DNA of 64,000 nt from Halobacteriovorax sp. JY17. Lineage in GTDB: Bacteria; Bdellovibrionota; Bacteriovoracia; Bacteriovoracales; Bacteriovoracaceae. This document shows positions 4,692-62,095 of the stretch, in pieces; within the stretch, counting starts at the first letter, position 1; every line of letters starts with the position of its first letter. A model generated the notes under the pieces. It was not told where the DNA came from, made no database searches, and worked only from the letters and a program-made list of their open reading frames with translations. A program made the translations under genes and the position numbers. Where the stretch lies: contig NZ_NJER01000002.1 in NCBI RefSeq assembly GCF_002753895.1, positions 679,990 to 743,989 on the forward strand, given 5' to 3'.

Positions 4692-4710
4692 GCTTTCCCT
4701 CTTCCTTTAG

Positions 4711-4775
4711 ATGACCCAAGCGGATAAAATAAAAGCTAAATAATCTTAAAAACTTAGCTCTCTAAATTGGGTCAT
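4711..4775 (+). promoter_or_regulatory. Nested inverted repeats in the leader of the DUF3108 gene
   Basis: Outer arms ATGACCCAA (4711-4719) and TTGGGTCAT (4767-4775) are perfect 9-bp complements. Between them lie inner arms AGCTAA (4734-4739) and TTAGCT (4754-4759). The 3' outer arm ends 4 nt before the ATG at 4780 and contains the only G-rich stretch that could act as ribosome binding site. A transcript could therefore fold to hide the initiation region. There is no U-tract, so it is not a normal terminator for lpxK. Confidence 0.45.
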
Positions 4776-4779
4776 TACT

Positions 4780-7097: not shown

Positions 7098-7279
7098 ACT
7101 CACAAGAATATCTAAGAATTAACTGTACATTAGACGGTGCATCAGTTATCTTCTGGCAAACTAAATTTCTCTCATGTCGCAGTAGCGAATACAGGGACGC
7201 GGGCATTGCCAGCGCTATCAAAAATTATGGTAAAGAATTGGGAGTATCCAAGCCTTTTTCTGAACCTAGGGAGGTCAAT

Positions 7280-9016
7280 ATGACTACTCAAGAATTAAAA
7301 CAAAAATGGATGACAGATTTTGAGGTTGTTTACGGTGAAGACGTAGAAGTTGTTGAAGCAACAGAATTCTCAAAATTACTAGACACAACTACTACTAAGA
7401 ACTTCGAAGAAGGTGAAGTTTTTATGGGGAACGTTGTTTCTATTGGACCAGACTACGTTATGATCGATATCGGTTATAAGCAAGAAGGTCTAGTTTCAGT
7501 TAGAGAATTCCAAAACTATGATGGTTCTCTAAAGATTAAAGAAGGTGACGATATTGAAGTTTATTTAGATAAGCTTGAGTCATCTATGGGTAACCTTGTT
7601 CTTTCTAAAGACAAAGCCGAAATCCTTAAAGCTTGGGATAAAATTTCTGAAGCTTGTGAAAAAGGTACTCCTCTTGAGGGGACTGTTATCGCTAAGGTTA
7701 AAGGTGGACTTTCTGTAGATATCGGCGTTAAGGCGTTCTTACCAGGTTCTCAAATTGATCTTAGACCAACTAGATACCTTGATAAGTACATCGGTAAGAA
7801 GATGGAATTCAAAGTAATCAAGTTCAATAAGAAAAGAGGAAACATTGTTCTTTCTAGAAGAGCTATTCTTCAAGAAGAACGTGGAAAAATGAGACAAGAA
7901 ATTCTTGATCAAATTCAAGAAGGAATGATTGTTAAAGGTATCGTTAAAAACATCACTGATTACGGTGCATTCATCGATCTTGGTGGTATTGACGGTCTTC
8001 TACACATTACTGATATGTCTTGGGGAAGAGTTAAGCATCCTTCTAACCTACTTAATATGGGTGACGAAATTGATGTTAAAATTCTTAAGTTTGATTCTGA
8101 TAAAGAAAGAGTTTCTCTTGGACTTAAGCAAGTTCAGCCAAACCCTTGGGAAAAAGCTAAAGAAACTTACACTGCAGGAACTAAAGTTGGTGGAGAAGTT
8201 GTATCTGTTAAAGATTACGGTGTATTCATTGAACTTGACGATGGGATCGAAGGTCTTATCCACGTTTCTGAAATGTCTTGGACTGGAAAAATTAAAAACC
8301 CAGCGAAGCATTTCAATGTTGGTGAAAGAATCGAAGCTCAAGTACTTGACGTTGATGTTGAGAACAAGAGAATTTCTCTTGGACTTAAGCAACTTCAAGA
8401 CAATCCATGGGAAGCAATTGAAGCTAAGTACCCTGTAGGGACTAAAGTAACTGGTAAAGTTAAGTCAATTGTTGAATTTGGAATGTTTATTGATCTTGGA
8501 GAAGAAGTTGATGCTTTAATCCACGTATCAGATCTTTCTTGGACTAAGAAGAATGTAAATATCAACGAAGAATACAAAGAAGAATCTGAGCTTGAAGCTG
8601 TAGTTCTTTCTGTAGACAAAGAGAACTCTAAGTTCTGTCTTGGTATTAAGCAACTTCACGAAGATCCTTGGAAGAAAATCGAAACTAGATTTCCTGTTGG
8701 AACTGTAGTTGAAGCAGAAGTAGTTAGAGTTACTGACTTTGGTGCTTTCGTTGAGCTAGAGACTGGAATTGAAGGTCTAGTACATATTTCTGAACTTTCT
8801 GAAGAGAGAGTTGATAAGCCTGAAGACGTTATCAAAAAAGGTGACGTTGCAAAAGCAATGGTAATTTCAATTGATAAAGATGCGAAGAAGATCGCTCTTT
8901 CAATTAAAGCTGCCGCTTCTGCTGCTGCAAACGGTTCTTACTCAGCTGCAACTGTTAAAGCTGCAACGCTTGCTGATAAGTTCAAAGGTTTCTCAATCGA
9001 TAAAGACGAAGAATAA
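7280..9016 (+). CDS. rpsA: 30S ribosomal protein S1
   Basis: 578 residues with six S1 (OB-fold) domains; the four C-terminal ones show the repeating pattern G.V..I.DYGAFIDLG.IDGLLHITDMSW and end NPWE or DPWK. S1 binds mRNA leaders on the 30S subunit. Start chosen at ATG 7280 because GGGAGGTC lies just upstream; an in-frame TTG at 7238 gives a 14-residue extension without family support. Codons and composition are more regular than in neighbours, as expected for high expression. S1 commonly represses its own mRNA, and the 180-nt leader could serve this. A strong terminator follows. Confidence 0.97.
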   Translation: MTTQELKQKWMTDFEVVYGEDVEVVEATEFSKLLDTTTTKNFEEGEVFMGNVVSIGPDYVMIDIGYKQEGLVSVREFQNYDGSLKIKEGDDIEVYLDKLESSMGNLVLSKDKAEILKAWDKISEACEKGTPLEGTVIAKVKGGLSVDIGVKAFLPGSQIDLRPTRYLDKYIGKKMEFKVIKFNKKRGNIVLSRRAILQEERGKMRQEILDQIQEGMIVKGIVKNITDYGAFIDLGGIDGLLHITDMSWGRVKHPSNLLNMGDEIDVKILKFDSDKERVSLGLKQVQPNPWEKAKETYTAGTKVGGEVVSVKDYGVFIELDDGIEGLIHVSEMSWTGKIKNPAKHFNVGERIEAQVLDVDVENKRISLGLKQLQDNPWEAIEAKYPVGTKVTGKVKSIVEFGMFIDLGEEVDALIHVSDLSWTKKNVNINEEYKEESELEAVVLSVDKENSKFCLGIKQLHEDPWKKIETRFPVGTVVEAEVVRVTDFGAFVELETGIEGLVHISELSEERVDKPEDVIKKGDVAKAMVISIDKDAKKIALSIKAAASAAANGSYSAATVKAATLADKFKGFSIDKDEE

Positions 9017-9040
9017 AATAAAATTTAAAATTTGTTTTTA

Positions 9041-9075
9041 TACGAGGGCCCGCATTAACTGCGGGCCTTTTTTTT
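9041..9075 (+). terminator. Rho-independent terminator of rpsA
   Basis: Stem GGCCCGCA / TGCGGGCC closes a TTAAC loop and is followed directly by eight T residues; this is a textbook intrinsic terminator 30 nt after the rpsA stop. Confidence 0.95.
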
Positions 9076-9076
9076 G

Positions 9077-9310
9077 GAGGCGTCATATGCCAGGAAGGCA
9101 TATGACGCCGAACAACCCAGGCGAGCACAGGAGGTGCGAGATCGGGGGCCGGCTTTGAAGCGCGAAGCTATTAAACGCCGAACAACGCGTAGGTGAGCAG
9201 GATGCGAACCGAAGAGGTGGATAATCTTTGATTTTCTTGCAAGTAAGTTAGAGCACAGGAAGTGCGAGATCGGGTGAATATGCCAGGAAAATATATAGCA
9301 ACGCGTTAGT
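9077..9310 (+). repeat. GC-rich array of AGGA-loop hairpins downstream of rpsA
   Basis: Within about 230 nt there are five AGGA-centred elements: a perfect 13-bp hairpin with loop AGGAA (9079-9109); GCAC-AGGAG-GTGC (9125-9137); GC-AGGAT-GC (9197-9205); GCAC-AGGAA-GTGC (9253-9265); and ATGCCAGGAAAATAT (9280-9293). The 24-nt stretches 9123-9146 and 9251-9274 differ at one base. ACGCCGAACAAC occurs at 9105-9116 and 9175-9186, and CAACGCGT recurs at 9183 and 9299. GC content is clearly above the surroundings. No protein frame is convincing. It may be a dispersed repeat, or an RNA with CsrA-type GGA loops; no promoter of its own is obvious. Confidence 0.7.
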
Positions 9311-9572
9311 TTTGAATAATATCGAATTCTCCTTTTATGTACGAATTTTCAGTACGTTATCTCCATGATTGCTCTCGCAGATTGCCTAATTACTCTAGTT
9401 TCTTACACTGGCTAAAGTGGGACCCTGCTCTTTAATTAGCTGGTTTTACGTAAGGATTTGACAGTCCTGACATATTCTTACATTTGCATGTAGGAATTAC
9501 AGAGTGTCTGGGTTCTTTCTGACATGCTGTTTTAGCGGTGTTAGTTTTCAGTATCGAAAAAAGGGGAAAAGA
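9311..9572. other. Intergenic stretch before the trypsin-like gene
   Basis: No gene is convincing here. It holds a perfect TTGACA at 9458-9463 and a short palindrome TACAT-TTGC-ATGTA at 9479-9492. A -10 box is poor (TACATT at 9479-9484 gives a 15-nt spacer), so promoter assignment for the downstream protease is weak. The rest is AT-rich with no repeat that I can see. Confidence 0.35.
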
Positions 9573-10631
9573 ATGAAGACAGTATTAGCATTAGCAGTTC
9601 TATGTGTAAGCGCCAACGTAGCAGCAGCTCAACCAAAAGTGGCCTACGGTGAAGATAATAGAATTGATATAGTAGATAGTAGAAATAGCATGAGAAAGAA
9701 TCTTGCTTCATCTACAGCAACTCAAGTTAAAAACGGAAACCTTACTTTGTCTGAAGATAAGGCATCATACGCTTTAAAGAATGAAACATTAGAAGATTTC
9801 ATGCTGAAAATTTCTAGAACATGGTGGGACCCACAAGGTAAGCCACTTTGTAAGGGTGAGAAATTTGCAAAGCAACTTTCAATCGGAAATTGTTCAGGAT
9901 TCTTGGTTGGTAATAAGTATTTAGTAACAGCTGGTCACTGTATGACTTCTGAGAGTGATTGTTCAGGTGCTAAGTGGGTATTTGATTTCAAAAAAGGTGA
10001 AGTAGAAGATCTAAGCCTAGAAGCTGACAAAGTTTATTCTTGTAAAACAATTGTTAGTCAAAAGCTATCAAATAGTGATCAGATGGATTATGCACTAATC
10101 GAACTTGATAGAGTTGTTGAGGGAAGAGAGCCATTACAGTTTAGAAAAGAAGGTAAGATTGGTTTAGGTGAAGGTGTATTTGTTATTGGTTCACCGTCAG
10201 GTCTTCCTTTAAAAATATCTGGAGACTCAACTGTTCAAGCAAATGGGAACTCTGTTTACTTCGATGCTGATTTAGATACATTTGGTGGAAACTCTGGTTC
10301 AGCAGTATTTAATGCAAGAAGTGGAGAAGTTGAAGGAATCTTAGTTCGTGGAGCAAAAGATTATACAACTTACACAAGAAAAGACGAAGATGGAAATAGC
10401 TATGAGTGCCAAGGTGTTAACTTCTGTGAAGAAGGTGTTACTGGTGGAGCATGTGGTGGAGAAGCCGTTACTCGTATAACAAATGTAGAAATCGAAAAGA
10501 AAATTGCTGAATTTGAAGCACAGACGGAGAGCGAAGTAGATAATACTGTTGAAAATGTTCTAAGTGATAGTGAAGTTGATCAAGCAATTAGTGAAGCTTT
10601 AGCAGCATTAGATGCAGCAGAGCTTCAGTAA
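9573..10631 (+). CDS. Secreted trypsin-like serine protease (S1/V8 type)
   Basis: 352 residues from ATG 9573, which follows AAGGGG; an earlier in-frame GTG at 9504 is rejected because the signal peptide begins at 9573. The signal MKTVLALAVLCVSANVAAA predicts export. The chymotrypsin-fold triad is visible: His in VTAGHCM, Asp in DYALIEL, Ser in GGNSGSAVF. Several Cys residues around the His and Ser loops could pair. The last 50 residues are acidic (repeated SEVD, EAQTE). The enzyme may degrade prey or extracellular proteins, which is inference. Start and end are flanked by intergenic DNA, so it is monocistronic. Confidence 0.9.
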   Translation: MKTVLALAVLCVSANVAAAQPKVAYGEDNRIDIVDSRNSMRKNLASSTATQVKNGNLTLSEDKASYALKNETLEDFMLKISRTWWDPQGKPLCKGEKFAKQLSIGNCSGFLVGNKYLVTAGHCMTSESDCSGAKWVFDFKKGEVEDLSLEADKVYSCKTIVSQKLSNSDQMDYALIELDRVVEGREPLQFRKEGKIGLGEGVFVIGSPSGLPLKISGDSTVQANGNSVYFDADLDTFGGNSGSAVFNARSGEVEGILVRGAKDYTTYTRKDEDGNSYECQGVNFCEEGVTGGACGGEAVTRITNVEIEKKIAEFEAQTESEVDNTVENVLSDSEVDQAISEALAALDAAELQ

Positions 10632-10694
10632 AAAAAAAGAGAGTTATCAGGTGAAGCGAACTTTCGTAAATGTGTCGTGACCTTTTAATTATAT

Positions 10695-10725
10695 AAGGCC
10701 TATCTTTTGATAGGCCTTTATTATT
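10695..10725 (+). terminator. Rho-independent terminator after the trypsin-like gene
   Basis: Stem AAGGCCTATC / GATAGGCCTT with TTTT loop, followed by a T-rich tract (TATTATT). It lies 64 nt beyond the stop. Confidence 0.88.
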
Positions 10726-10734
10726 GGGAATGAA

Positions 10735-11463
10735 ATGAAGGTATACTTAATTTTAATATTCTTAATAACATCTAGCGAAGCCTTCTCTAAAGGGCGAAAT
10801 TGTTTTTCTACACACATTAAAGATGCCATTGAAGAAAACAAGTATAGAAAACCTCTTTACGCTAAGCTTACGAATGGAAGAACAAAGATCCTAAGTAATC
10901 TCTTAATTAATTCTGAAAGAATTACTTTTCTATTAGCAAAAGCTTATGATCAAAGAGCTAAGAAGTATCAACAGAAAAATTTACCAATACTTTGTTTAGA
11001 TTATATTGATATGAATCTCACACCAGCATTCTCATCATATCTTGACTATCCTGATCTGAGATATAGAGAAGTTCCAAAAATAAATATTAAAGAAGTAAAA
11101 AAAGAATTAAAGAAGTCGTTAAAGAGAAACTATGAAGAAGTTTTAGTGACAAGTGAGAGACTCATAGAGGAGTATAAGAACTCAGGACACTATAATTGTA
11201 TGGTTGTTCATGTTCTAGAGTCGATTAGGAGAGCAGCATTTCTAGCTCCTCACTATATTCTTTCTGCAAAAATGAAAGAGCTAAATTCACCTAAAAGAAT
11301 AATTTCAAGTAATATAAAACTTCAAATTAATTCTCTTGGGGTTTGGTACTACTTAGATCGAAAGGCGTCTGAGTTTCAAGAAGAAGGGGTGAGAATTCTT
11401 TGTCAGGATATCCCAAAAATTGACTTACCAACAAGTATGGAAGTGGACTCTATTTATAACTAG
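10735..11463 (+). CDS. Hypothetical exported protein
   Basis: 242 residues, not recognised. An N-terminal hydrophobic stretch (MKVYLILIFLITSSEAFS) looks like a signal peptide, then a Cys at about residue 23. The rest is helical and Lys/Glu/Tyr-rich, with a second Cys (YNCMVVHV) and a third (ILCQDIP), so disulfide pairing in the periplasm is possible. The sequence shows a weak internal duplication: both halves contain an ILCxDI/ILCLDY segment after a run of basic residues (residues about 83 and 220). It is followed 8 nt later by another unknown gene. Confidence 0.6.
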   Translation: MKVYLILIFLITSSEAFSKGRNCFSTHIKDAIEENKYRKPLYAKLTNGRTKILSNLLINSERITFLLAKAYDQRAKKYQQKNLPILCLDYIDMNLTPAFSSYLDYPDLRYREVPKINIKEVKKELKKSLKRNYEEVLVTSERLIEEYKNSGHYNCMVVHVLESIRRAAFLAPHYILSAKMKELNSPKRIISSNIKLQINSLGVWYYLDRKASEFQEEGVRILCQDIPKIDLPTSMEVDSIYN

Positions 11464-11471
11464 GTTAGAAG

Positions 11472-12014
11472 ATGAATTATTTTTATCACTTACTTCCTGA
11501 GCCATTTATAGGAAGTAAATTAATTCCATTAAATGAAATGAATCCTGAAGGCGAACTCTACAAGTCTCACAATAGAAAATATCTTGGTCGAGAAGAGCTG
11601 ACGGAAGAAATTATTCCAATATTAAATTGCAAATGGAATGATGTGGTTCAATTCTCAGCTCTTAATCCACAACTTATAATTAATGAACTACGAAAAATTC
11701 AGTCTGATTTTCAGCTCTTTAGAACGAAGTGCTTTAAAGTTTCTGTAGTAGAAGTTGAAGAGCTCTATGAAGGAGTAATATTCAATAGGAATATAAATCA
11801 GAAAAAAGGAGACTTTTCTATTTCAGACGAAGAGGTTATGGCCCTTAACTCAAAGAATTATACTGAGCTAAAATCAGTTCCACCTGAAACAATGAATTAT
11901 TGGAATAGTGTTAAAAGAGATGGTGGAAAATTTCTTTGGTTTCCTTATATCACTCATATTTTCTTAAAAGGTGCTATAGATACGACTAATTTTGAAGTGA
12001 TTAATTTAAAATAA
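11472..12014 (+). CDS. Hypothetical protein
   Basis: 180 residues, not recognised; no signal peptide or membrane segment. It begins YHLLPEPFIGSKLIPLNEM, with a long central helical segment and an aromatic C-terminal region (KFLWFPYITHIFLKG). Probably cytosolic and co-transcribed with the exported protein upstream (8-nt gap). The stop is separated by a single base from the stop of the convergent gene on the other strand. Confidence 0.6.
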   Translation: MNYFYHLLPEPFIGSKLIPLNEMNPEGELYKSHNRKYLGREELTEEIIPILNCKWNDVVQFSALNPQLIINELRKIQSDFQLFRTKCFKVSVVEVEELYEGVIFNRNINQKKGDFSISDEEVMALNSKNYTELKSVPPETMNYWNSVKRDGGKFLWFPYITHIFLKGAIDTTNFEVINLK

Positions 12015-12015
12015 A

Positions 12016-12315
12016 TTATTGCTTTGGAAGATTTGGGTCTTCAGGCATACAAACTACACATCCGTGTTCATCATTTTGGATGTGACTTGCAATTTCTTCA
12101 TCAACTTCATTTCTAAGAGTAGAGAGGTCAGCTTCGTCGGCTCCAAGACTGACGGCGAGGGTTTCAGAGAGTGAAGGCGCGTGAACCTTTATTTCAATAC
12201 CCATTTCTTCCATTCTTCTGGCATAGTCAAAAGCTTTCTCATGATCTTCAAAGTCACACTCAAATAGAACTTCTAGTGAATTGGCCTCAATGACTTTGAT
12301 TTTACTTTTTGACAT
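12016..12315 (-). CDS. Small acidic protein of unknown function
   Basis: 99 residues. It opens with a beta-strand-like segment (KIKVIEANSLEVLFECDF), then a helix with alternating charges and EIKVHAPSLSETLAVSLG, consistent with a small ferredoxin-like or ACT-like alpha/beta fold; the C-terminus has CVVCMPEDP. A CxxC-like pair is present but I do not assign metal binding. The ATG is preceded by AGGGAAAG. Family not recognised. Confidence 0.6.
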   Translation of the reverse strand: MSKSKIKVIEANSLEVLFECDFEDHEKAFDYARRMEEMGIEIKVHAPSLSETLAVSLGADEADLSTLRNEVDEEIASHIQNDEHGCVVCMPEDPNLPKQ

Positions 12316-12390
12316 ATTTTTCTTTCCCTCTAGAATTTGGTTTGTTAAAAACCATCTAGATTACTCTAACATGTCGGGGATTTCATAGAA

Positions 12391-12732
12391 ATGAAAAAGC
12401 TATATTATATCGAAGAAGAGGCCTTTCTTAGGGATTTGCTTGAAGCTCTGTGTCGGGCCGAAGAAAATTTTGAGGCCAATACGACTGCCGATGGAAGGGA
12501 TAACCTATACTTCTTTAACGATCTAAACCCAGACTTTATTCTAGTTGATTGGGCGACTATTGAAAGCTACCAAGAGAAACTCTTAGAGGACTTAGTTCAA
12601 GTGTCGCAGATTCCTGTGGGTGTTACCAAGCTAAAAGAGCAACAATTGCCAGAAGCGTGGCTAAATAGAGCAAGTCTTGTTTTGGATAAACCACTTGAGG
12701 CGAAATCTCTACTTAGAAATATCTTTTCCTAA
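12391..12732 (+). CDS. Stand-alone receiver-like (CheY-fold) protein
   Basis: 113 residues matching a response regulator receiver without an output domain: an acidic cluster IEEEAF at residues 7-12 in place of the usual DD pair, FILVDWA at the phospho-acceptor Asp (about residue 51), VGVTK at the Thr switch and VLDKPLE with the conserved Lys-Pro. All key positions can be mapped, although acidic pair and flanks are unusual, so phosphorylation is plausible but not certain. No histidine kinase is adjacent. A hairpin with arms AAATCTATT/AATAGATTT (12731-12758) directly follows. Confidence 0.6.
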   Translation: MKKLYYIEEEAFLRDLLEALCRAEENFEANTTADGRDNLYFFNDLNPDFILVDWATIESYQEKLLEDLVQVSQIPVGVTKLKEQQLPEAWLNRASLVLDKPLEAKSLLRNIFS

Positions 12733-12758
12733 ATCTATTCTTCGTTAATAATAGATTT

Positions 12759-49414: not shown

Positions 49415-49840
49415 TTAAGAGGCCTTAGGGAAATTCATATCATCATCGTTATCACTTTCTCTCTTAGAATCAAGATCAACTACATTAGAAGGCACTTCTT
49501 CTTCAAGATCTTTCACCCCTTTCATTAGGCCAAGCCATACCGCTATTGGTAGTAAACAAATCATAAGAATAACAATTGTCTTATTTGTTGTAGATTTACT
49601 ATCATCCATCATTTCTACATTCGTTTCTTTGACGGGACTTTTTCTAACAGGGGCTAAAGACTTTGATTTCTCATTTTGAGTAAAGTCAAAAGGTGTCGCT
49701 TTAGATGGAGCAACGTCGTCGTATTGATCAATCGAAATTCCCGAAACTGGTTCTACCGCTGGCTTTCTCGCAAAAGTCATCGAGCTCGTTATGAGGGCCA
49801 GAAAGAGAAATAAAATGAGCTGTCTATTAAATTGTTTCAT
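49415..49840 (-). CDS. Exported membrane protein of unknown function
   Basis: 141 residues. N-terminal signal or first membrane helix (LILFLFLALITSSMTFA), polar Pro/Lys-rich middle, then a second helix (TIVILMICLLPIAVWLGL) and an acidic cytoplasmic tail. Two-pass inner-membrane topology is likely. Not recognised. Stop is one base from that of the convergent large lipoprotein, so the two have no space for a terminator. Confidence 0.65.
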   Translation of the reverse strand: MKQFNRQLILFLFLALITSSMTFARKPAVEPVSGISIDQYDDVAPSKATPFDFTQNEKSKSLAPVRKSPVKETNVEMMDDSKSTTNKTIVILMICLLPIAVWLGLMKGVKDLEEEVPSNVVDLDSKRESDNDDDMNFPKAS

Positions 49841-49978
49841 ATGTAACCACTTGAAAATAGGTTCGGTGCCTCTTTGGAAACCCTAAATATTTTTCACGAA
49901 TACTTAGGAGGGCTCTTCTATATGATACATGGCAATGTGATGTAATTTTAGTGAGAAAATTTCACCCTAGGGAAAGCT

Positions 49979-51139
49979 ATGAATACTGTGATTGAGAAAG
50001 CTAAATTAAGTGATGTCAGTGAATTATTATCACTTTATCTTTCAGTGTATGGGGAAGATTATCCATTAGATATCGGAACGAAACGCTCGGTTATGGAAGA
50101 AGGATTAAATAATCCAGATAAGAATCATTGGTATGTCATGAGATGTACGAATACTAATCAAATTATTGTTTCTGGAATTATTCAGATTGAAGAAGAAAAT
50201 AAAATTGGAAAACTCTCAGGCGTTGCTGTTCATGATGAGTTTAGAAAGCATGGTCTAGCAACAGGATTTATTGGCCATGCAGTGAATGAAGTTCTAAGAG
50301 AGAAGAAGCTTGTTAACTCAATCTATGCAACTGCAAGAACGATATCTCACTCTTCACAGACGATGCTTATGAAGAATGGTTTCATTCCTCTTGGTTTCTT
50401 TCCAAATTGTAGACGTATTAAAACGTATGAGACTTTAGCTCTACTTGCCATTTTTGCAGATGGTGTTTTAGAAAAGAGAAAAGTTCCAAAAGTTGTTCCA
50501 GAGTCTGTAGAGCCCTTTTATTCCTTAGTTGAAAAAGAAGTCACTGGACTTGAAAGTAATTTTGATAGAACTCCTTGTTTAATTAAGAAAGATCATCAAT
50601 TTCATGATCTCACTTCGAAAGAAGGAGAATTTGAATTTATCTTTGCAAAAAACTTCGTAGAGAAGAGATTCTTTGAAACTTTTAAAGATGATGAAGAATC
50701 TGTATTTTATCCATTTCATAAACCAAATCTCCTAATATCAAATATGGAAGAGGGAATTGAAATCTTTGCTTCTTTTAGCAAGAAAGATCATTACTGTGTG
50801 ATTATTACAGCTAATAAAAGTATTATAAGCCTTGGGCAAAAAATTAATAAAATGCTCTTTGCAATGAAAGAAATTGGAATTTACTACGTTGAGACAATGG
50901 TTCGCTCTGATAGAAGAGAGCCAATTTGTTTTTTAACGGAGAATAACTTCCTTCCTTCTGCAGTTTATCCAGCGATGAGAGTTGAAGAAGGATTTGCACA
51001 AGATTATATACTACTGGCCAGAACAATGGTTCCTCTCGACTTTAGTGAATTAGCTATACATAAATCCTTTAAGCCTTACCTTGATCAATATGCAAAACAG
51101 TGGATTGATATGCACTTAAATATTTTGAGGATAGAGTAA
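49979..51139 (+). CDS. Tandem GNAT-type acyltransferase
   Basis: 386 residues. First GNAT domain about residues 1-150: SGVAVHDEFRKHGLATGFIG is a recognisable acetyl-CoA motif A, and MLMKNGFIPLGF is motif B. The C-terminal half ends with IGIYYVETMVRSDRREP and FLTENNFLPSAVYPA, resembling a second, degenerate GNAT fold. Start follows AGGGA. The stop overlaps the luxE-like start (TAATG), so it is the first gene of the aldehyde-type operon and may acylate its product or a carrier; this is inference. Confidence 0.75.
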   Translation: MNTVIEKAKLSDVSELLSLYLSVYGEDYPLDIGTKRSVMEEGLNNPDKNHWYVMRCTNTNQIIVSGIIQIEEENKIGKLSGVAVHDEFRKHGLATGFIGHAVNEVLREKKLVNSIYATARTISHSSQTMLMKNGFIPLGFFPNCRRIKTYETLALLAIFADGVLEKRKVPKVVPESVEPFYSLVEKEVTGLESNFDRTPCLIKKDHQFHDLTSKEGEFEFIFAKNFVEKRFFETFKDDEESVFYPFHKPNLLISNMEEGIEIFASFSKKDHYCVIITANKSIISLGQKINKMLFAMKEIGIYYVETMVRSDRREPICFLTENNFLPSAVYPAMRVEEGFAQDYILLARTMVPLDFSELAIHKSFKPYLDQYAKQWIDMHLNILRIE

Positions 51140-52293
51140 TGTCTAATCCTCAAGTTCCAGATGAAAAAGAACTAAGAGCAATAAGTGAACTTTGCTTAAA
51201 GGAAAATCCTTATCAAAACTTTCATGAAACGGATGAATTATTTCTAACTGCCATGAAAGAGAATATTTCGTGGCATTATAAAAGAAATGAGTTTTATAAG
51301 AGGTTAATTGATTCTGAGAGATTCGAGGGTGAGGCTTTGAAGTCAGCAGAAGACTTAGAAAGAGTTCCTCATATTCTTTCTAACTTCTTTAAGTATCATG
51401 AAGTAAAATCAATTACAGATGAAAATGTTTACTTGCATTTAACATCATCTGGAACAACTGGACAAAAATCACAAATATTCTTTGACGAATGGACTATCAA
51501 ATCTGCACAGAAGATGGTCGATAGTATCTTTCATTCTTATAATTGGAATAGTGAAGAAAGAACAAATTATCTCTTGTTTACTTACGAGCCTGAAGAAGGA
51601 AGCAAACTAGGAACTGCTTATACAGATAATTTCCTTTGTAAGTACGCTCCAGTAAATGAAGTGCACTATGGGATTCGCTATCTTGGTAAAGAGGAAGGGC
51701 ATAAATTTGATGTCTTTGGTTGCATAGAGGCATTGAAGAAATTTGAACGTGATGGAATTCCTGTGAGAGTTTTTGGGTTTCCCTCTTTCTTCTTCTTTAC
51801 ACTTTCTAAAATGAAAGAACTAGGAATAGAGCCACTAAAGCTTTCTAAGAACTCTCTTGTATTTCTTGGGGGAGGATGGAAGGGCCATCAAGATAAGGCC
51901 ATCTCTAAGAGTGAATTCTATTCTCTTTGTGAAGAGATGTTAGGAATACCTAATGAGAGACTGAGAGATGGGTTCGGGTCAGTGGAGCACTGTATTCCTT
52001 ATATAGAATGTGAGAAGCATAATTTTCATATTCCAGTGTGGTCTAGGGTCTTAATTCGAGATGTAGAATCTCTAAAGGTTTTACCTGATGGAGAGATTGG
52101 CTATTTAAACCTTATCTCTCCCTATATTACTTCAGCTCCAGCAAATAGTATCTTAATGGGAGATCTTGCAGTCAAGAGAAGCGATTGTGATTGTAGCTTA
52201 AATACCCCTTGGTTTGAAATTTTAGGTAGAGCAGGAATTTCAAAGAATAAGAGTTGTGCAGTTGCGGCCAGCGAATTGATTGGAAAGGTGTAG
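51139..52293 (+). CDS. LuxE-family acyl-protein synthetase
   Basis: 384 residues, PF04443-like. ATP loop LTSSGTTGQKS (residues 101-111) and a C-terminal Cys373 in KNKSCAVAASELIG, matching the position of the acyl-accepting Cys of LuxE (Cys364 in vibrios). In luminous bacteria LuxE activates fatty acid as AMP ester and passes it, on this Cys, to LuxC for reduction to aldehyde. Here the partner LuxC lies 2 nt downstream. No luciferase genes are in the window, so the aldehyde would serve another purpose. Confidence 0.85.
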   Translation: MSNPQVPDEKELRAISELCLKENPYQNFHETDELFLTAMKENISWHYKRNEFYKRLIDSERFEGEALKSAEDLERVPHILSNFFKYHEVKSITDENVYLHLTSSGTTGQKSQIFFDEWTIKSAQKMVDSIFHSYNWNSEERTNYLLFTYEPEEGSKLGTAYTDNFLCKYAPVNEVHYGIRYLGKEEGHKFDVFGCIEALKKFERDGIPVRVFGFPSFFFFTLSKMKELGIEPLKLSKNSLVFLGGGWKGHQDKAISKSEFYSLCEEMLGIPNERLRDGFGSVEHCIPYIECEKHNFHIPVWSRVLIRDVESLKVLPDGEIGYLNLISPYITSAPANSILMGDLAVKRSDCDCSLNTPWFEILGRAGISKNKSCAVAASELIGKV

Positions 52294-52295
52294 AT

Positions 52296-54692
52296 ATGAA
52301 AGTATTTGCAAAAGGAAAAAATTTAGAAACCCTAAATTATGATGAATTAAAGTTGATCGTTAGAGATTCAGCCTGTCGCTCTTTAGAAATTGAAAACGTT
52401 GTAAGGGCACTCGACCTATTTTCTAAAAAAGTTCTCACTCTTGATTTAGATCAGGGGCTTGCTCGTGAAATTTCAACTTTTTGTTCTCAAAAAGGAATAG
52501 AAGGAAAACTAAAAAGTGAGTTAGGTTCAATTAACCCGTTTGATATTAAGCGAAGAGATTTCAAGACTACCGAAATGGAGTCTTACTATCCTCTTGGAAC
52601 TTTACTTCATATCACCTCTTCTAACTCAGAAGGTTTAGCCTTTCTTGCCTTAGTCGAAGGTTTAATAAGCGGTAATATTAATATTGTAAAGTTGAGTAGA
52701 AGAGATAGTGATATTTGCTTCAAGCTCGTTGAGATACTTCTCTCTTTCGATAAATCAAACTTCTTGAAAGACAGAATTGTCTTACTGCAAGATGCAAGTA
52801 TTGGTTTAGAAGAGTTAATTGACTTGAGTGATGGGGTTTCTTGCTGGGGAGGAGATAGTGCTCTAAATTCTATAAGAGCATTAGTTCCAAGTTCTAAGAG
52901 GTTTATTACTTGGGGGCATAAAATATCATTTGCTCTAATTGATATGGACGGCGACCTTAAAACTAAGGCCGATAAATTGGTCTTAGAGATACTTAAGTAT
53001 AATCAACAGGCGTGTTCTGCTCCACAGGTATGTTATGTATTAGATGCAAGTTTTTCTGAAATAAGAGACTTTTCTAAATTACTAGATGAGGCTTTTTCTG
53101 AGTCTTTAGATATAACTTCCCTAGAACTTGATATTCAAGAAAAAGCAGAGCTTACAAATTATAATCAACTCTTAAAGTTAGAGTCTCTTGTCGAGGATAA
53201 GGGCGTTATCGTTGGAAGGGATCATCAATGGAGAATTTACACCGAAAATAATTCTGATTTTAAACCATCTCCGCTCAATCGTACAATTTGGATAAAACCT
53301 CTCAAGAGAGAAGATATTATTAAGACGTTTGTGAGTCATAGAGATTACCTTCAGACGGTGGGAGTATCTCTTTCTGAAAAGAAAATTGAATTTGTAAGAG
53401 ATTTACTGAGTGCCGGAGTGACGAGAGTTCGTGAGCTTGGAAGAATGCAAGAGTCTTATAGTGGAGAGCCTCATGACGGAGAATATGCCTTAAGACGATT
53501 TGTGAAGAAAGTAAGTATTGACCTAGACATGCTTTCTCAAAATTTCCGATTAGATGAGAGAATCTTTAAAAAGCAAAGTATTAATAAAAATCTAAAGGTT
53601 ATGAGTAAGGAAGACTTCCAGAATATGGATGTAAATGAATCTTTAAATCATTTATTCTTTAGAAGTGGAGGAAGTTCTGGAAAAACTGCAATTTCTCCTT
53701 TTTCATATAATTCTTATCATGTTCAGATGAAGGCCGCAGCGGAAGGATTACTTGCTTCTGGACTTAATCCTAGTACTGATCGCTGTGGTAACCTCTTCTT
53801 TGGAGGGGGGCTTTACGGTGGGTTTATAAGCTTCTTCACGATCTTAGAAATGATGGAGGCCATTCAATTTCCTATTGCTGCTTACGAAGACAAAGAGTTT
53901 GTTGCAAAGGTGATTTTAGACAATAGAGTTGATACTCTTCTAGGAATGCCATCATATATTATTGATCTTTTTAAAGAGCAAGCTGCAGTCTTAAGAAAAT
54001 CTTCTGTGAAGAAAATTTTCTTTGGAGGGGAGCACTTTCCTGATGGACAAAAACACTGGTTAAAAGAAGAGTTTGGAGTTGAGATTATAAGGTCTGCCAG
54101 CTATGGCTCTGTTGACGCTGGACCTCTTGGGTTTCAATGCGAGTGCTGTGAGGGTTCTGAGCATCACTTAAATGAAACTATTCAGCAATTAGAAATATTG
54201 AAAATAGAGAGTGATGAAGAAGTCTTGGAAGGAGAAGTCGGAAGGCTCGTATTTACATCAAAAGCAAGAGATTCAGTGAGCATCAATAGATATGATCTTG
54301 GAGATCTTGGCCGAATGATTTCGAAGGAATGTGATTGTGGAAGAAAGAATTTAAAGTTTGAGCTTCTTGGAAGGCATGGAGATATTTTTAGGGCCGGAGG
54401 GACTTTCTTTAACTTTACAAAGATTCAAAGAGTCTTAGAAGAATATTTTTCGTATGGAGGTAGTCTACAAGTCATTATAGATAATTCAACGGGAAAAGAT
54501 TCGATAGAGGTTGTTTTAGATAATAAAGAATTTTCAGAGGAGGAATTTATGGAGAAATATAAAGATCTTTATGAAGCTGTTCAAATGGAGCAGACGGTTT
54601 TATTTTCAATGAAAAATACTTCTCCAAAAGACTTTCTTCACTCTAAGAATAGTGGGAAGCTCTTAAGAGTAATTGATAAGAGGATATTTTGA
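52296..54692 (+). CDS. Fusion of LuxC-type acyl reductase and PaaK-like adenylating domain
   Basis: 798 residues from ATG 52296. Residues 1-410 are LuxC (acyl-CoA reductase, NADPH-dependent): YPLGTLLHITSSNSEGLA, catalytic Cys240 in NQQACSAPQ, and SYSGEPHDGEYALRRFV. Residues 430-798 are a second, phenylacetate-CoA-ligase-like adenylating domain: FRSGGSSGKTAISPF (P-loop), SASYGSVDAGPLG, RYDLGDLGRM and LLGRHGDIFRAGG. A Cys-rich insert (CECCEGSEHH) follows the first ligase motif. Such a fusion puts activation and reduction on one chain. The substrate is unknown; a fatty or aryl acid is likely. Confidence 0.85.
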   Translation: MKVFAKGKNLETLNYDELKLIVRDSACRSLEIENVVRALDLFSKKVLTLDLDQGLAREISTFCSQKGIEGKLKSELGSINPFDIKRRDFKTTEMESYYPLGTLLHITSSNSEGLAFLALVEGLISGNINIVKLSRRDSDICFKLVEILLSFDKSNFLKDRIVLLQDASIGLEELIDLSDGVSCWGGDSALNSIRALVPSSKRFITWGHKISFALIDMDGDLKTKADKLVLEILKYNQQACSAPQVCYVLDASFSEIRDFSKLLDEAFSESLDITSLELDIQEKAELTNYNQLLKLESLVEDKGVIVGRDHQWRIYTENNSDFKPSPLNRTIWIKPLKREDIIKTFVSHRDYLQTVGVSLSEKKIEFVRDLLSAGVTRVRELGRMQESYSGEPHDGEYALRRFVKKVSIDLDMLSQNFRLDERIFKKQSINKNLKVMSKEDFQNMDVNESLNHLFFRSGGSSGKTAISPFSYNSYHVQMKAAAEGLLASGLNPSTDRCGNLFFGGGLYGGFISFFTILEMMEAIQFPIAAYEDKEFVAKVILDNRVDTLLGMPSYIIDLFKEQAAVLRKSSVKKIFFGGEHFPDGQKHWLKEEFGVEIIRSASYGSVDAGPLGFQCECCEGSEHHLNETIQQLEILKIESDEEVLEGEVGRLVFTSKARDSVSINRYDLGDLGRMISKECDCGRKNLKFELLGRHGDIFRAGGTFFNFTKIQRVLEEYFSYGGSLQVIIDNSTGKDSIEVVLDNKEFSEEEFMEKYKDLYEAVQMEQTVLFSMKNTSPKDFLHSKNSGKLLRVIDKRIF

Positions 54693-55933
54693 ATAATAGA
54701 CTAAGAGAACATATTTTATTTGTTAGAGAGAAATCAGAATTTTATAGAAACCTCTATCAAGATGTTAATCAGACGACTTTTTCTCTATCTGATTTACCAA
54801 TTCTTAATCAGGAAAGTTTTTGGGGGAGTAATGGTTTCGATAATAATACTGTCTTAACGTCTACTCAGCCAAATGGTGTTGTTTTTAAAAGTGGAGGAAC
54901 GACAGGCACTCCGAAGTCGAGTTATTTTACTCAGGAGGAATGGGAAGTCTTCACAAGTGATTTTGCTTTTGGCATGGATCAACTTAATTTGAAAGAGGGA
55001 GATCGTTGTGCAAACCTCTTCTATTCAGGTGATTTATATGCTTCTTTCTTATTTATTAATAAGAGTGTTGAAAAACTAAAGAGCAAAGTTGTTCAGTATC
55101 CAATTACTGGACAAACGAGTCTAGAAGAAACAAGGAAGATTATTGAAAACTTTAAAATCAATACTCTATTTGGAGTTCCTACTTCTTTGTTAAATCTAGC
55201 AAATCAATTTAAAGAGAAAAATTCTCAAATTGAACATATATACTATGGCGGAGAACCACTCTTTGAAGACCAGAAAGAGAAGCTCTTGGAGAAGTTTCCA
55301 TGTGCCCATATATCATCAATTGGATATGCTAGTGTAGATGGTGGACAACTTGGTTATGTGAATTCTACTTGTCTTGCTGGTGAACATATTGTTTTCGAAA
55401 ATACGATTATGGAAATCGTAGATATTGAAACAAATAAAGTAATTTCGGAAACTAATAAAGTCGGAAAATTAGTTTATACAAATCTCTCTAGAAGATTAAT
55501 GCCAATCATTCGCTATCCTGTTGGAGATATGGCCACTTGGGTAGAAGTGGGGACTAAGTTTAAGCTGTTGGGTCGTTCTGATGAAGGAGCTCGAGTTGGT
55601 CCAGTTACTATTTCACGAGATGATATTCTCTCGGCACTAAAGAGAAGTAGCTTAGGTGAATATGTTCAGAATATTCAATTGGTAATAAAGAGAGATAATG
55701 GCAGAGATTATTTGCATGTCTACTTAGGAGTTGAAAGTAAAGTTAGTCTTAATATTTCAGAGTCCTTAAGGAACTTTAAAGAGCACTTTGCCTTAGAAAG
55801 ACCTATGTACCAGAAGGAGAAGAACGCTGATAATATTGGAGAATTAGAAGCTTCAATAGTATTAGTTGATGACCTCCAGAAGAACCCAAGAACAGGTAAA
55901 TTAAGGTTAGTTATAGACGAAAGATTCTCCTGA
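54689..55933 (+). CDS. PaaK-like adenylate-forming enzyme
   Basis: 414 residues, homologous to the C-terminal half of the preceding protein: FKSGGTTGTPKSSYF (residues 67-80), YASVDGGQLGY, RYPVGDMATW and KLLGRSDEGARVG. Adenylate-forming (phenylacetate-CoA ligase or coenzyme F390 synthetase-like) family. Start is a TTG overlapping the preceding TGA (TTGA). Having two PaaK-like domains in one operon may reflect gene duplication, with one copy fused to LuxC. Substrate unknown; last gene of the operon. Confidence 0.83.
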   Translation: MNNRLREHILFVREKSEFYRNLYQDVNQTTFSLSDLPILNQESFWGSNGFDNNTVLTSTQPNGVVFKSGGTTGTPKSSYFTQEEWEVFTSDFAFGMDQLNLKEGDRCANLFYSGDLYASFLFINKSVEKLKSKVVQYPITGQTSLEETRKIIENFKINTLFGVPTSLLNLANQFKEKNSQIEHIYYGGEPLFEDQKEKLLEKFPCAHISSIGYASVDGGQLGYVNSTCLAGEHIVFENTIMEIVDIETNKVISETNKVGKLVYTNLSRRLMPIIRYPVGDMATWVEVGTKFKLLGRSDEGARVGPVTISRDDILSALKRSSLGEYVQNIQLVIKRDNGRDYLHVYLGVESKVSLNISESLRNFKEHFALERPMYQKEKNADNIGELEASIVLVDDLQKNPRTGKLRLVIDERFS

Positions 55934-58269: not shown

Positions 58270-58920
58270 TTATACGTCTATTTTAAAGTCTAAATCCCAC
58301 TCTGAATGAGGGTGAGCTTTTAAAAAATTGATCAAAGAGGCGCAGTGGAGTCGAATATTTCTGACTTGAGTTTTTTTATTTAGATGTTTTATCTTATTGC
58401 ATCTTTCTTTGATCACACTTGAGCTCATTATAATCGCCATATGAGTAATATGCGATATGAGCATAGAAACTACCCAAAATCTTCCATCAAGAGGAGTCTC
58501 TTCTCCAACTTCATCTGTGACTAATTTTAGAAGTATTTCTCCTGCGGGAGGGCCTAGGCTGTCAGAGCAAACACCTTCCGCGTCTGAAAAGTCGATACTT
58601 TCATTTAGTATCAATCTAAAAGTATTTAGAAGAGTGTGGCTATGGTCCATAAAGAAGTTAAACATCTCAACAGAGAAATCTCCAAGGTCCATTCCTTCCT
58701 TGTAGATTTCTTTAAGCTGCTTTTCAACTTCTATACAATTGTTATTAAAGACTTCAAAATAGAGATTTTGCTTATTGGAGAAGTGGTAATTAACAGAGGC
58801 AAGATTTACATCTGCCTCTTTAGCAATATCTCTAACAGAAGTTCCATCATAACCCTTACAACCGAAGAGTTTGAGAGCAACACCAAGAATTTTACACTTT
58901 GTATCGTTTACTTTTGTCAT
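58270..58920 (-). CDS. TetR-family repressor of the efflux operon
   Basis: 216 residues. N-terminal TetR helix-turn-helix: KILGVALKLFGCKGYDGTSVRDIA and VNLASVNYHFSNKQNLY; the C-terminal part is ligand-binding and not assigned. It starts 7 nt after the RND gene, so it is co-transcribed with the pump and likely represses its own operon through the repeats at 63572-63609. AGGAA precedes the ATG. Confidence 0.87.
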   Translation of the reverse strand: MTKVNDTKCKILGVALKLFGCKGYDGTSVRDIAKEADVNLASVNYHFSNKQNLYFEVFNNNCIEVEKQLKEIYKEGMDLGDFSVEMFNFFMDHSHTLLNTFRLILNESIDFSDAEGVCSDSLGPPAGEILLKLVTDEVGEETPLDGRFWVVSMLISHITHMAIIMSSSVIKERCNKIKHLNKKTQVRNIRLHCASLINFLKAHPHSEWDLDFKIDV

Positions 58921-58927
58921 ACTATTC

Positions 58928-61900
58928 CTATGCTAGCTCTTCTGTTACTTCTAAGTCGCCTTCGACATGCTTACTTCTCTTCGTTATTCTATTCATGAAG
59001 TTCACAAAGTCTTCAAGAATAGCGTATGCAGGAGGAATAAAGGAGAGTGTCAGAATTGTTCCCGACACAAGTCCCCAGGCCATCGCAAGAGTCATTGGAA
59101 CTAGAGTTGGGTCAGATCCTCCAACCCCATAGGCCGTAGGAAATAGTCCACTGACAGTCGTTAGAGAGGTTACAAGAACTGCTCTAAGTCTCATCCCGGA
59201 AGCTTTAACTAGAATTTCGTGAAGAGAGAGTTTACCCTCTGCTCTCATTTCATCAATAAAGCTTATTAGAACAATTCCTGAGTTTACGATAATCCCGGCG
59301 AGTCCAATAATACCAATTAAAGCAAGAAAGGAAATTGGACGTGTTCTATCCATATATCCACTAAGAACTGGTGTTGCAAAAGCAATAGAGAAACCTAGTA
59401 GCCCTAGAGGGATCGTCATCATAATAATGAGTGGTCTCAGATACGACTTAAAGAGAAAAACAAGTATTGCGAAGATTCCGATAGCAGCTAGAATACTTGC
59501 TTGAGCTAAACTTTCCATGGACTCTTTTGTAGACTCTGCAACTCCACCAAATACTAGTGATACACTTGGGTAATCTGATCTAAGCTCTTCGTAAGTTTTT
59601 AGAAGAATTTGATTAGCTTCCATTGCTGTAATCTTCTTTTCATTAATTGAACCTGCAAGAGTTTTTGATCTCTTAAAATCAAATCTCTTAATTTGAGGAG
59701 TTCCATCTTTTGTTTCAAACTTAGCAAATGTACCTAGTGGAACAAGATTTCCTCTGGTATCCATAATATTAACGTTTTTCAATTTCGAGATGTCTGTTCT
59801 ATCTTCTTCTTTGAAACTTACTCTGAGGTCTACATCTTTGTTGTTAAGTGTTACCTCTGAAATGATTCTTCCTGAAATAGCACTTCTAACAGTATCTCCA
59901 GCATTGAAAATATTTAATCCAAGTTGATCTGCTTTTTCATAATCGATATTTATAAAAACTTCATCATCACCAATAATGTCATTCACTTTTAGGTCGATTA
60001 CTCCTGGAACTTTGCCAAGTCTTTCTTTCACTTTTCCAATGAGTGTATCTAGCTCTTCTCCGTCATTTGATCTAAAAGTCGCTTCAATATCACTTCCTAC
60101 CGGAGGACCATTTACTTGAGCTTCAAAAGTGAGAGATTTATAACCATCTTTTGATATTCCTGCTCTCAGCTTTTCTAGAACTGTTGTGTAGAAGAGGTTT
60201 AGTTTTGCATCTTCTGTGACATAGATGAAAACAATTCCAACATTATTTCCTTCAGAAGCCTTTGGGTCTGTTAGTTGAACTTTTGATTCTCCTGATCTTC
60301 CTACAAGGTGCTCAACATCTTCTCCAAGGACTTCTTTAATCTTACCTGTTAGTGTTTTTAGCTTATCGTTTGTTTCATCAAGCTTTGTTCCATTTGGTAG
60401 CTCAAATCTTGCTATATAAATTTCTGTCTGATCAGCAGGAAAGAGAATGAATTTATTTCCTGCTGTCATCATAAATAATGCAAAGATAATTAGACCAGAA
60501 AAACCTGCAGCTGCGATATATCTTCTCTTAATAAGAACTTCCATAAATTTTTCAAACTTACTTTCAAATTTATGAAACCAGTCTTTCTTTGAGTTTCCAT
60601 CTTTGTCTTTTTTTACAGATGATCCTGCACTTACTAATCTCATCGGTAGGAAGAAGAAACTTTCGACAAGAGAAAGTAGGAGGGAAATGGTTACGACAAT
60701 AGGAATCCATTTAATGAATTGTCCCATAATCCCTTTTGTAACTAACATTGGGAGAAAAGCTGCAATTGTTGTGAAAGCAGTTGCTGTGATTGGTAGCCAA
60801 AGACTTCTGATCGATTCGAGGGCCGCTTCTTGTGATGTTTTGCCATCTTGTCTGAGTCTTGTGAAGTTCTCAGAAATAACAACTGAGTTATCAACGAGCA
60901 TCCCTAGGGCAATAACTAGAGCAAGCACTGTTATTGTATTTAGATTCATTCCAAAAGCGGGCATGATTCCAAGGGTTCCCATAATTGCGAGAGGAAGAGA
61001 CATTGATGCCATTAGACCAATTCTTCCTGGAAGAAAAATGAAGAGGAAAACAATAACTAGGATTAATCCTGATACTGCGTTATTGGCCAGAACATCTAAT
61101 TTATCCTTAACCTTAATTGACTCATTTAAGAATACTTTGAATTCAGCTTTACCTTTATAAAGTTTCTCATATTCTAATAGCTTCTTATTTACATTCTCTA
61201 CAAGTGCAATTGTATCGGCACCTGCTTTCTTGGCAATTGTTAAGAGAGTTGCATCTTCACCGTTATATCTTGTTTTTACTTTGATATCTTCTTCACCATC
61301 TACGACTTTTGCAACATCTTTTAGATAAATAGATTGGCCTGAGAAATTAGATCGAATAAGAATATTTTCGAGCTCGCTTGTATTTTTAATTTTCCCTTCA
61401 AGCCTTAAAAGCTGTTGAGTCTTATCTTGCTTAAGGTTACCTCCCGGAATGTTTACATTCCTCGCTTGAATCTTAGAGATTAACTCTTGCATGCCAATGT
61501 GATGTTTATTTAAGAGATTATTATCGACTTCAATTTGGAAAGTTCTCTTTGTGTATCCTGCTAGAGTGACACCCTTAACGAGTTTATTATCTTCAATTTC
61601 TTCTTTTAGATGATCTGAGATTATATCTCTTAGCCTACCTTCGTTACTTCCAAGAACTGCAATTTGAAAAACAGGCATTTCTTCAGATTTTATTTCATTG
61701 AACTTCGGTCTATCTATTAAATCTGATGGGAGTTTATTTGTTCTATCAACTGCTTTTTGTATATCACTCATGACATCTTCAACGACAACGCCTGAACCGT
61801 CCATATCAATTCGGATGACAATTGTACTAAGGCCAGATTGACTAGTTGAGTTTACATCTTTAAGTCCACTAACAGTACGAATCTCATCTTCAATAGGTTT

Positions 61901-62095
61901 AGTGATTTTTGTTTCTATATCTTGGGCTGTCGCACCGTCATATCTCGTCGTTACAATTGCAGTCGCAAAACTTACGTTAGGGTAGGACTCAGAGTTCATT
62001 TTCGCTAGACCCATAATTCCATAAATCATCATACCTAGCATGAGGACAATGGAGAGCTTCGAATTTTCAATAAAGAATTTTGAAATTGTTTTCAT
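58928..62095 (-). CDS. RND efflux permease
   Basis: 1055 residues, AcrB/MMPL-like architecture: one N-terminal membrane helix, a large periplasmic loop, six helices (TVLALVIALGMLVDNSVVISEN contains the proton-relay Asp), second loop and last six helices. It has VDN where HAE1 pumps usually have VDD, so one of the two proton-relay Asp is missing, as in some RND subgroups. Substrate not predictable. Directly follows the tolC-like gene with no adaptor gene in between. Confidence 0.9.
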   Translation of the reverse strand: MKTISKFFIENSKLSIVLMLGMMIYGIMGLAKMNSESYPNVSFATAIVTTRYDGATAQDIETKITKPIEDEIRTVSGLKDVNSTSQSGLSTIVIRIDMDGSGVVVEDVMSDIQKAVDRTNKLPSDLIDRPKFNEIKSEEMPVFQIAVLGSNEGRLRDIISDHLKEEIEDNKLVKGVTLAGYTKRTFQIEVDNNLLNKHHIGMQELISKIQARNVNIPGGNLKQDKTQQLLRLEGKIKNTSELENILIRSNFSGQSIYLKDVAKVVDGEEDIKVKTRYNGEDATLLTIAKKAGADTIALVENVNKKLLEYEKLYKGKAEFKVFLNESIKVKDKLDVLANNAVSGLILVIVFLFIFLPGRIGLMASMSLPLAIMGTLGIMPAFGMNLNTITVLALVIALGMLVDNSVVISENFTRLRQDGKTSQEAALESIRSLWLPITATAFTTIAAFLPMLVTKGIMGQFIKWIPIVVTISLLLSLVESFFFLPMRLVSAGSSVKKDKDGNSKKDWFHKFESKFEKFMEVLIKRRYIAAAGFSGLIIFALFMMTAGNKFILFPADQTEIYIARFELPNGTKLDETNDKLKTLTGKIKEVLGEDVEHLVGRSGESKVQLTDPKASEGNNVGIVFIYVTEDAKLNLFYTTVLEKLRAGISKDGYKSLTFEAQVNGPPVGSDIEATFRSNDGEELDTLIGKVKERLGKVPGVIDLKVNDIIGDDEVFINIDYEKADQLGLNIFNAGDTVRSAISGRIISEVTLNNKDVDLRVSFKEEDRTDISKLKNVNIMDTRGNLVPLGTFAKFETKDGTPQIKRFDFKRSKTLAGSINEKKITAMEANQILLKTYEELRSDYPSVSLVFGGVAESTKESMESLAQASILAAIGIFAILVFLFKSYLRPLIIMMTIPLGLLGFSIAFATPVLSGYMDRTRPISFLALIGIIGLAGIIVNSGIVLISFIDEMRAEGKLSLHEILVKASGMRLRAVLVTSLTTVSGLFPTAYGVGGSDPTLVPMTLAMAWGLVSGTILTLSFIPPAYAILEDFVNFMNRITKRSKHVEGDLEVTEELA

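Follow-up and report, generated by a model that had tools for sequence, protein, structure and literature searches.

A LuxE/LuxC::PaaK operon of Halobacteriovorax as a candidate leupeptin-type peptide-aldehyde operon

What is a LuxE/LuxC pair used for in a bacterium that carries no luciferase? The question is raised by an operon in a 64,000-nt stretch of the genome of Halobacteriovorax sp. JY17 (contig NZ_NJER01000002.1, positions 679,990 to 743,989), which as a whole is called the window here. A first-pass annotation had described four genes as a candidate aldehyde-forming system without luxAB; their products are a tandem GNAT protein, the acyl-protein synthetase LuxE, a LuxC reductase fused to a PaaK-like domain and a second PaaK-like enzyme. 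Open reading frames (ORFs) as well as Pfam and NCBIfam matches agree with this gene set at positions 49979-55933 of the window, and the lack of luxAB extends to the whole genome, in which the luciferase family PF00296 has 0 matches. We judge it rather likely that the operon is of the leupeptin type and directs the formation of an N-acyl-peptide aldehyde independently of nonribosomal peptide synthetases (NRPSs). As read from the sequence, the product would probably be a di- or tripeptide that carries an N-acyl group and a C-terminal aldehyde and is secreted as a protease inhibitor or as a pyrazinone-type descendant. The features concerned are, in window coordinates:

49979-51139, plus strand: GNAT2 acyltransferase, 386 aa, leupA-like (Pfam Acetyltransf_1, 1.3e-4; AlphaFold; family alignment)
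51139-52293, plus strand: LuxE-family acyl-protein synthetase, 384 aa, leupB-like (Pfam LuxE, 9.4e-38; 7xc6_E, 5.6e-23)
52255-52257, plus strand: codon of the LuxE acceptor Cys373 (invariant in 30 relatives; alignment with 7xc6_E)
52296-54692, plus strand: LuxC::PaaK fusion, 798 aa, leupC-like (Pfam LuxC, 1.7e-75; PaaK-like at residues 446-796; AlphaFold)
53013-53015, plus strand: codon of the LuxC catalytic Cys240 (invariant; alignment with 7xc6_A)
53631-54683, plus strand: PaaK-like ligase domain of the fusion with P-loop SGGSSG and Lys788 (NCBIfam, alignments, AlphaFold)
54689-55933, plus strand: second PaaK-like ligase (adenylating), 414 aa, starting with TTG, leupD-like (AMP-binding, 2e-8; DVU1553/PaaK, 4.9e-32)
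49841-49978, plus strand: divergent intergenic stretch of 138 nt, the presumed operon start

The four plus-strand ORFs form a tight operon of 5.95 kb, in which the GNAT and LuxE genes overlap by 1 nt, the LuxE and fusion genes are separated by 2 nt and the fusion and second PaaK genes overlap by 4 nt. No promoter-like match was found in the 138-nt upstream gap, and the search for RNA families and tRNAs across the whole window returned none. ATG 52296 is the most likely start codon of the fusion; the alternative TTG at 52254, taken by a mechanical ORF call, would overlap LuxE. The LuxC match of the fusion spans residues 53-404, and AMP-binding in the rest of the protein is weak by Pfam but clear by NCBIfam. 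None of the four proteins has a Pfam or NCBIfam match to a carrier or condensation domain, and there is no megasynthase of the adenylation, peptidyl carrier protein and reductase (A-PCP-R) type.

Loss of catalytic residues, which had been named as a possible objection, was checked by alignment, and every residue examined is intact. The LuxE acceptor cysteine noted before, Cys373, pairs in the alignment with the cysteine of the KGC motif at the C-terminus of 7xc6_E, and Cys240 of the LuxC domain aligns with QQAC of 7xc6_A; both proteins match their families, PF04443 and PF05893, with the catalytic Cys present. Both PaaK-like ligases carry the ANL P-loop and the C-terminal catalytic Lys, which are kept in the family alignment of the fusion; in that of the fourth protein the glycines of the P-loop SGGTTG and Lys404 are invariant. 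The residues of LuxE, LuxC and the fusion align with the LuxC-LuxE complex 7xc6 and the PaaK-like 4r1l. In the AlphaFold model of the fusion, with a predicted local distance difference test (pLDDT) score of 90.1, residues 1-417 match Photobacterium phosphoreum LuxC 7xc6_A (Z 34.6, 405 residues, root-mean-square deviation 3.8) and residues 413-796 match the PaaK-like ligase 4rvo_B (Z 32.0, 362 residues, root-mean-square deviation 3.3). The GNAT protein is conserved across the family alignment, and residues 1-150 of its model (pLDDT 89.6) match many GNAT structures with Z of about 14-16; its Pfam match is modest and limited to residues 40-135. The description as a tandem GNAT stands for the N-terminal half, which matches the GNAT family; the C-terminal half is GNAT-like only in the secondary structure of the AlphaFold model, the fold search having covered mostly residues 1-269 and scarcely probed the C-terminal domain.

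Leupeptin is N-acetyl-Leu-Leu-argininal, whose assembly calls for an N-cap, two amide bonds and the reduction of a carboxyl to an aldehyde. The operon fits a product of this type because the GNAT protein, the two ligases and the LuxE/LuxC pair would supply the cap, the two amides and the reduction. In the order of steps that we infer, the two PaaK-like ligases at the C-terminus of the fusion and in the fourth gene would adenylate amino acids and form amides directly or via aminoacyl-coenzyme A (aminoacyl-CoA). For the GNAT protein we propose a role in N-capping, in aminoacyl transfer or in both: it would cap the peptide at its N-terminus and may in addition transfer the aminoacyl group of an aminoacyl-CoA that the ligases hand over. 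LuxE would adenylate the C-terminal carboxyl of the peptide and hold the peptide on Cys373, and the LuxC domain would take it onto Cys240, where NAD(P)H reduction would release the aldehyde, an argininal in leupeptin. A known pathway of the same gene order, likewise named beforehand as a possible objection, is probably represented by the leupABCD cluster, to the extent that its published gene number, length and transporter permit the comparison. The discovery study of leupABCD, by Li et al. in 2020, reportedly described discretely expressed ligases and accessory enzymes. In Klebsiella michiganensis CAV1374 (CP011636.1, 315353-321183) leupABCD, the gammaproteobacterial cluster for leupeptin, occupies 5.8 kb with its four genes and has a transporter next to it (PMC8283571); the cluster is also described in PMC11480411.

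How widely is the cassette shared? LuxC is present in 79 of 129 Bacteriovoracaceae genomes (E below 1e-20) and nearly always fused to PaaK, mostly in frames of 700-905 aa with the full fusion query matching both domains; the fusion, at first called unfamiliar, is thus unusual but not singular. A search for the domain order in other genomes, which the first-pass annotation had proposed as a check, found GNAT2-LuxE-LuxC::PaaK contiguous in 38 of the 41 loci with a readable fusion. Because these three genes stay contiguous while the flanking genes vary between subclades, the cassette persists as a unit. The fourth gene, PaaK, is next in 26 loci and absent from 15 of the 41; where sampled, the latter belong to one LuxE/LuxC subclade, and such a three-gene form with one ligase is predicted to give a shorter product. 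Phylum-wide, LuxC occurs in 102 of 369 and GNAT2 in 104 of 358 genomes, and both occur together in 95 (hypergeometric P about 1e-66, with shared ancestry ignored); conservation excludes a chance association of the two. GNAT2 has been kept although unlinked in two genomes (G126 and G127), since it is found there on a different contig from the remaining cassette genes. Probably, the kind of system is already known and it is the cassette that is unusually widespread in Bdellovibrionota. Only tentatively do we go further and suggest a near-core, NRPS-free peptide-aldehyde line in this phylum with four-gene (two ligases, tripeptide-type) and three-gene (one ligase, dipeptide-type) forms, which may yield new argininal-type inhibitors or signals and whose LuxE/LuxC lineage may also have been recruited to ribosomal peptides.

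Some loci deviate from this arrangement. Type II cassettes (L103, L107, L109, L114, L115, L121) contain PaaK, a protein of ~486 aa, LuxE and LuxC::PaaK, often with an MFS transporter, and GNAT2; their LuxE forms a separate clade (100/100), and the ~486-aa protein has no Pfam match in L103 and is GNAT2-like by a weak score in L109. GNAT2 stands alone in L142, L143 and L146 (genomes G305, G313 and G310), and the sister genome G309 (L116) has GNAT2-LuxE-LuxC::PaaK; the flanking genes of L143 match those of L116 in size and strand, and this points either to a loss of the other cassette genes or to a role that GNAT2 has on its own. At L118 11548-15284 (G336), the neighbours of a cassette relative are a dCache-HAMP-SpoIIE phosphatase and a fusion of an RsbW-like ATPase with GNAT.

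Outside the phylum, the full fusion was found by tblastn on three plasmids of the Streptomyces group and two of Salmonella, each with a matching LuxE. The annotated order is PaaK-MFS-GNAT-LuxE-LuxC::PaaK on NZ_CP108162; on NC_017585 and NZ_CP081497 the genes follow one another as PaaK, GNAT, LuxE, LuxC::PaaK. The cassette of NZ_CP108162 has the same enzyme set as the window, from which it differs by PaaK being first instead of last and by the MFS gene in the operon; identities are 53% for LuxE, 38% for LuxC::PaaK, 38% for PaaK and 33% for GNAT. On the Salmonella enterica IncF plasmids CP054717 and CP053580 the order LuxE-LuxC::PaaK-PaaK is that of the window, with identities of 49%, 36% and 37%, respectively. 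These cassettes, at L130 10800-16558 and L131 10800-15677, lie on conjugative plasmids, and an apparent truncated transporter fragment lies 5' of them in both. The Salmonella cassette had no match in ecoli_genomes.

The cassette proteins are united in a single clade of the LuxE tree (98/95; 40 rows), with Salmonella and Streptomyces nested in the 22-row subclade of the window (98/92) and the lux-vector LuxE outside and well apart. The LuxC tree recovers a 23-row type I group (99/99) and places the lux-vector LuxC near other cassette groups, with low support and on a long branch, so that a clean separation of lux and cassette proteins is given in the LuxE tree only. The nearest outside LuxE/LuxC pair is encoded on a Streptomyces europaeiscabiei plasmid without PaaK and GNAT, beside YcaO, metallo-beta-lactamase (MBL)-fold and MNIO (PF05114) proteins; after the pair comes a 53-aa ORF that contains four (D/N)(E/D)FPFR repeats. 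From its sequence, this ORF, found in one record only, looks like a multi-core precursor of a ribosomally synthesized and post-translationally modified peptide (RiPP) with cores ending in Arg. Because the FPFR cores end in Arg, this context suggests that this LuxE/LuxC lineage plausibly reduces C-terminal Arg to argininal. The RiPP-like cluster, at L135 (NZ_CP109155.1 1202-22296, reverse complement) 4043-12743, with a YcaO/nitroreductase protein, MBL-fold, MNIO, LuxE, LuxC and the 53-aa repeat ORF, is a possible ribosomal peptide-aldehyde pathway.

The gene neighbourhood bears on the fate of the product. About 19 related loci, as well as Streptomyces, have an MFS exporter of the antibiotic/siderophore-efflux (EntS) type inside the operon; in L067, L069, L099-L102, L104, L105, L119 and L123 it lies 5' of GNAT2, and in type II operons elsewhere. 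Since many cassette copies have such an exporter, a secreted metabolite is the expected product. The window operon itself contains no transporter gene. On the minus strand 3' of it, at 58270-62095, lie a TetR-like regulator and an RND-type efflux pump, syntenic in several relatives; the pump could take over export of the product in operons that have no MFS gene. On the other side, at 49415-49840 on the minus strand, lies the gene of a conserved protein of 141 aa, which has an apparent signal peptide and transmembrane helix and no Pfam match; in about 20 relatives this gene is oriented divergently to the operon.

Three other explanations were weighed. It is unlikely, though less so than the others, that the cassette makes a different acyl-amino or aryl-amino aldehyde without a protease target, such as an acylated amino aldehyde or a dipeptide aldehyde whose cyclisation gives a pyrazinone signal. 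The enzyme logic would be identical, Klebsiella autoinducers include leupeptin-derived pyrazinones (PMC11480411), PaaK-like ligases also accept aryl acids (2y4n, 9s45), and one related cassette adjoins the SpoIIE phosphatase and RsbW-like/GNAT protein described above; however, the Streptomyces and FPFR contexts favour peptidyl argininals. A fatty-aldehyde system, in which LuxE and LuxC would reduce a long-chain acid and the ligases and GNAT would turn the resulting aldehyde into a lipid, a pigment or a lipid signal, appears improbable to us. While the fatty acid reductase complex 7xc6 is the closest characterised LuxE/LuxC structure, identity to LuxC/LuxE of lux operons is 22-24% in comparison to 36-53% for the Streptomyces and Salmonella cassette proteins, the ligases are PaaK-like and not FadD-like, and close LuxE/LuxC relatives sit in a peptide-type cluster. 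Neither luxD, luxAB, acyl-carrier protein (ACP), ketosynthase nor glycerol or other lipid-synthesis genes recur beside the cassette loci. Of the original proposal, aldehyde formation is probably right; its fatty aldehyde-derived lipid or pigment is not supported, in view of the lack of recurrent lipid genes, a LuxE apart from the lux clade, the MFS exporter of many copies and the peptide-type cluster around the closest outside LuxE/LuxC pair. Modification of a macromolecule or surface sugar, modelled on LuxC/LuxE in flagellin or polysaccharide loci and on LuxE/LuxC pairs near aminotransferase, glycosyltransferase and acyl-ACP genes as in a Rhizobium plasmid locus, is very improbable, because those pairs form a separate clade, the cassette has no recurrent glycosyltransferase, flagellar or lipopolysaccharide genes as neighbours, and the MFS protein encoded in the operon belongs to an efflux type.

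The leupeptin-type assignment has points against it as well. Ligase specificity is not readable from sequence, and we know of no product from any Bdellovibrionota cassette. An MFS gene is absent from the window operon, one genus keeps GNAT2 without LuxE/LuxC, and the GNAT of Salmonella, annotated 3' of PaaK in one plasmid (locus L130), is short and strongly divergent. The proposed link to leupABCD is drawn from the number of genes, their total length, the transporter and the primer peptides. The peptide MKIAIHN, encoded by the leupA primer, fits the GNAT start MxxxIxxA; EQLKDHA, from the leupB primer, resembles Salmonella LuxE residues 24-30 (EQLFHNA) weakly, with K where most cassette LuxEs have F, and its placement is a weak hint, as other offsets are possible. 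Neither the leupA primer nor Salmonella LuxE was found in viral_contigs, and no useful literature was found on LuxE/LuxC/PaaK or on a Bacteriovorax acyl-CoA reductase.

If the leupeptin-type reading is right, most sampled genomes of this family, kin of predatory species, carry genes for a leupeptin-like protease inhibitor, which would raise the question of whether small molecules tune proteolysis in predation or in the competition for prey proteins. One LuxE/LuxC lineage would then work outside fatty-aldehyde chemistry, as terminal peptide reductases, and the combination of LuxE, LuxC::PaaK and GNAT would be a search handle for peptide aldehydes missed by NRPS-based genome mining.

Compared with known systems, the fatty acid reductase of lux operons (7xc6; lux vector L140) shares folds and catalytic Cys residues with the window proteins, but its LuxE (22% identity) falls in a separate clade, and the window differs by the PaaK domain fused to LuxC and by the absence of luxAB and luxD. 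Livipeptin and the NRPS-type peptide aldehydes of Streptomyces (PMC10548850) resemble the proposed product in being N-acyl peptide aldehydes, with a reductive step and an N-acyltransferase; they use an NRPS-like A-PCP-R protein, and livipeptin also an L/F-transferase, in contrast to the discrete ligases and LuxE/LuxC of the window. That Streptomyces species are documented leupeptin producers counts for the leupeptin-type reading, but their leupeptin is ascribed to an NRPS (PMC10548850), so that a link of the Streptomyces cassette to leupeptin is tentative. The same work sets the leupABCD route against NRPS-mediated routes (PMC10548850). The leupABCD cluster has an adjacent transporter that the window operon lacks, a feature that may not be defining; both comprise four genes of similar total length, 5.8 kb there and 5.95 kb here, and both stand off the conventional NRPS route.

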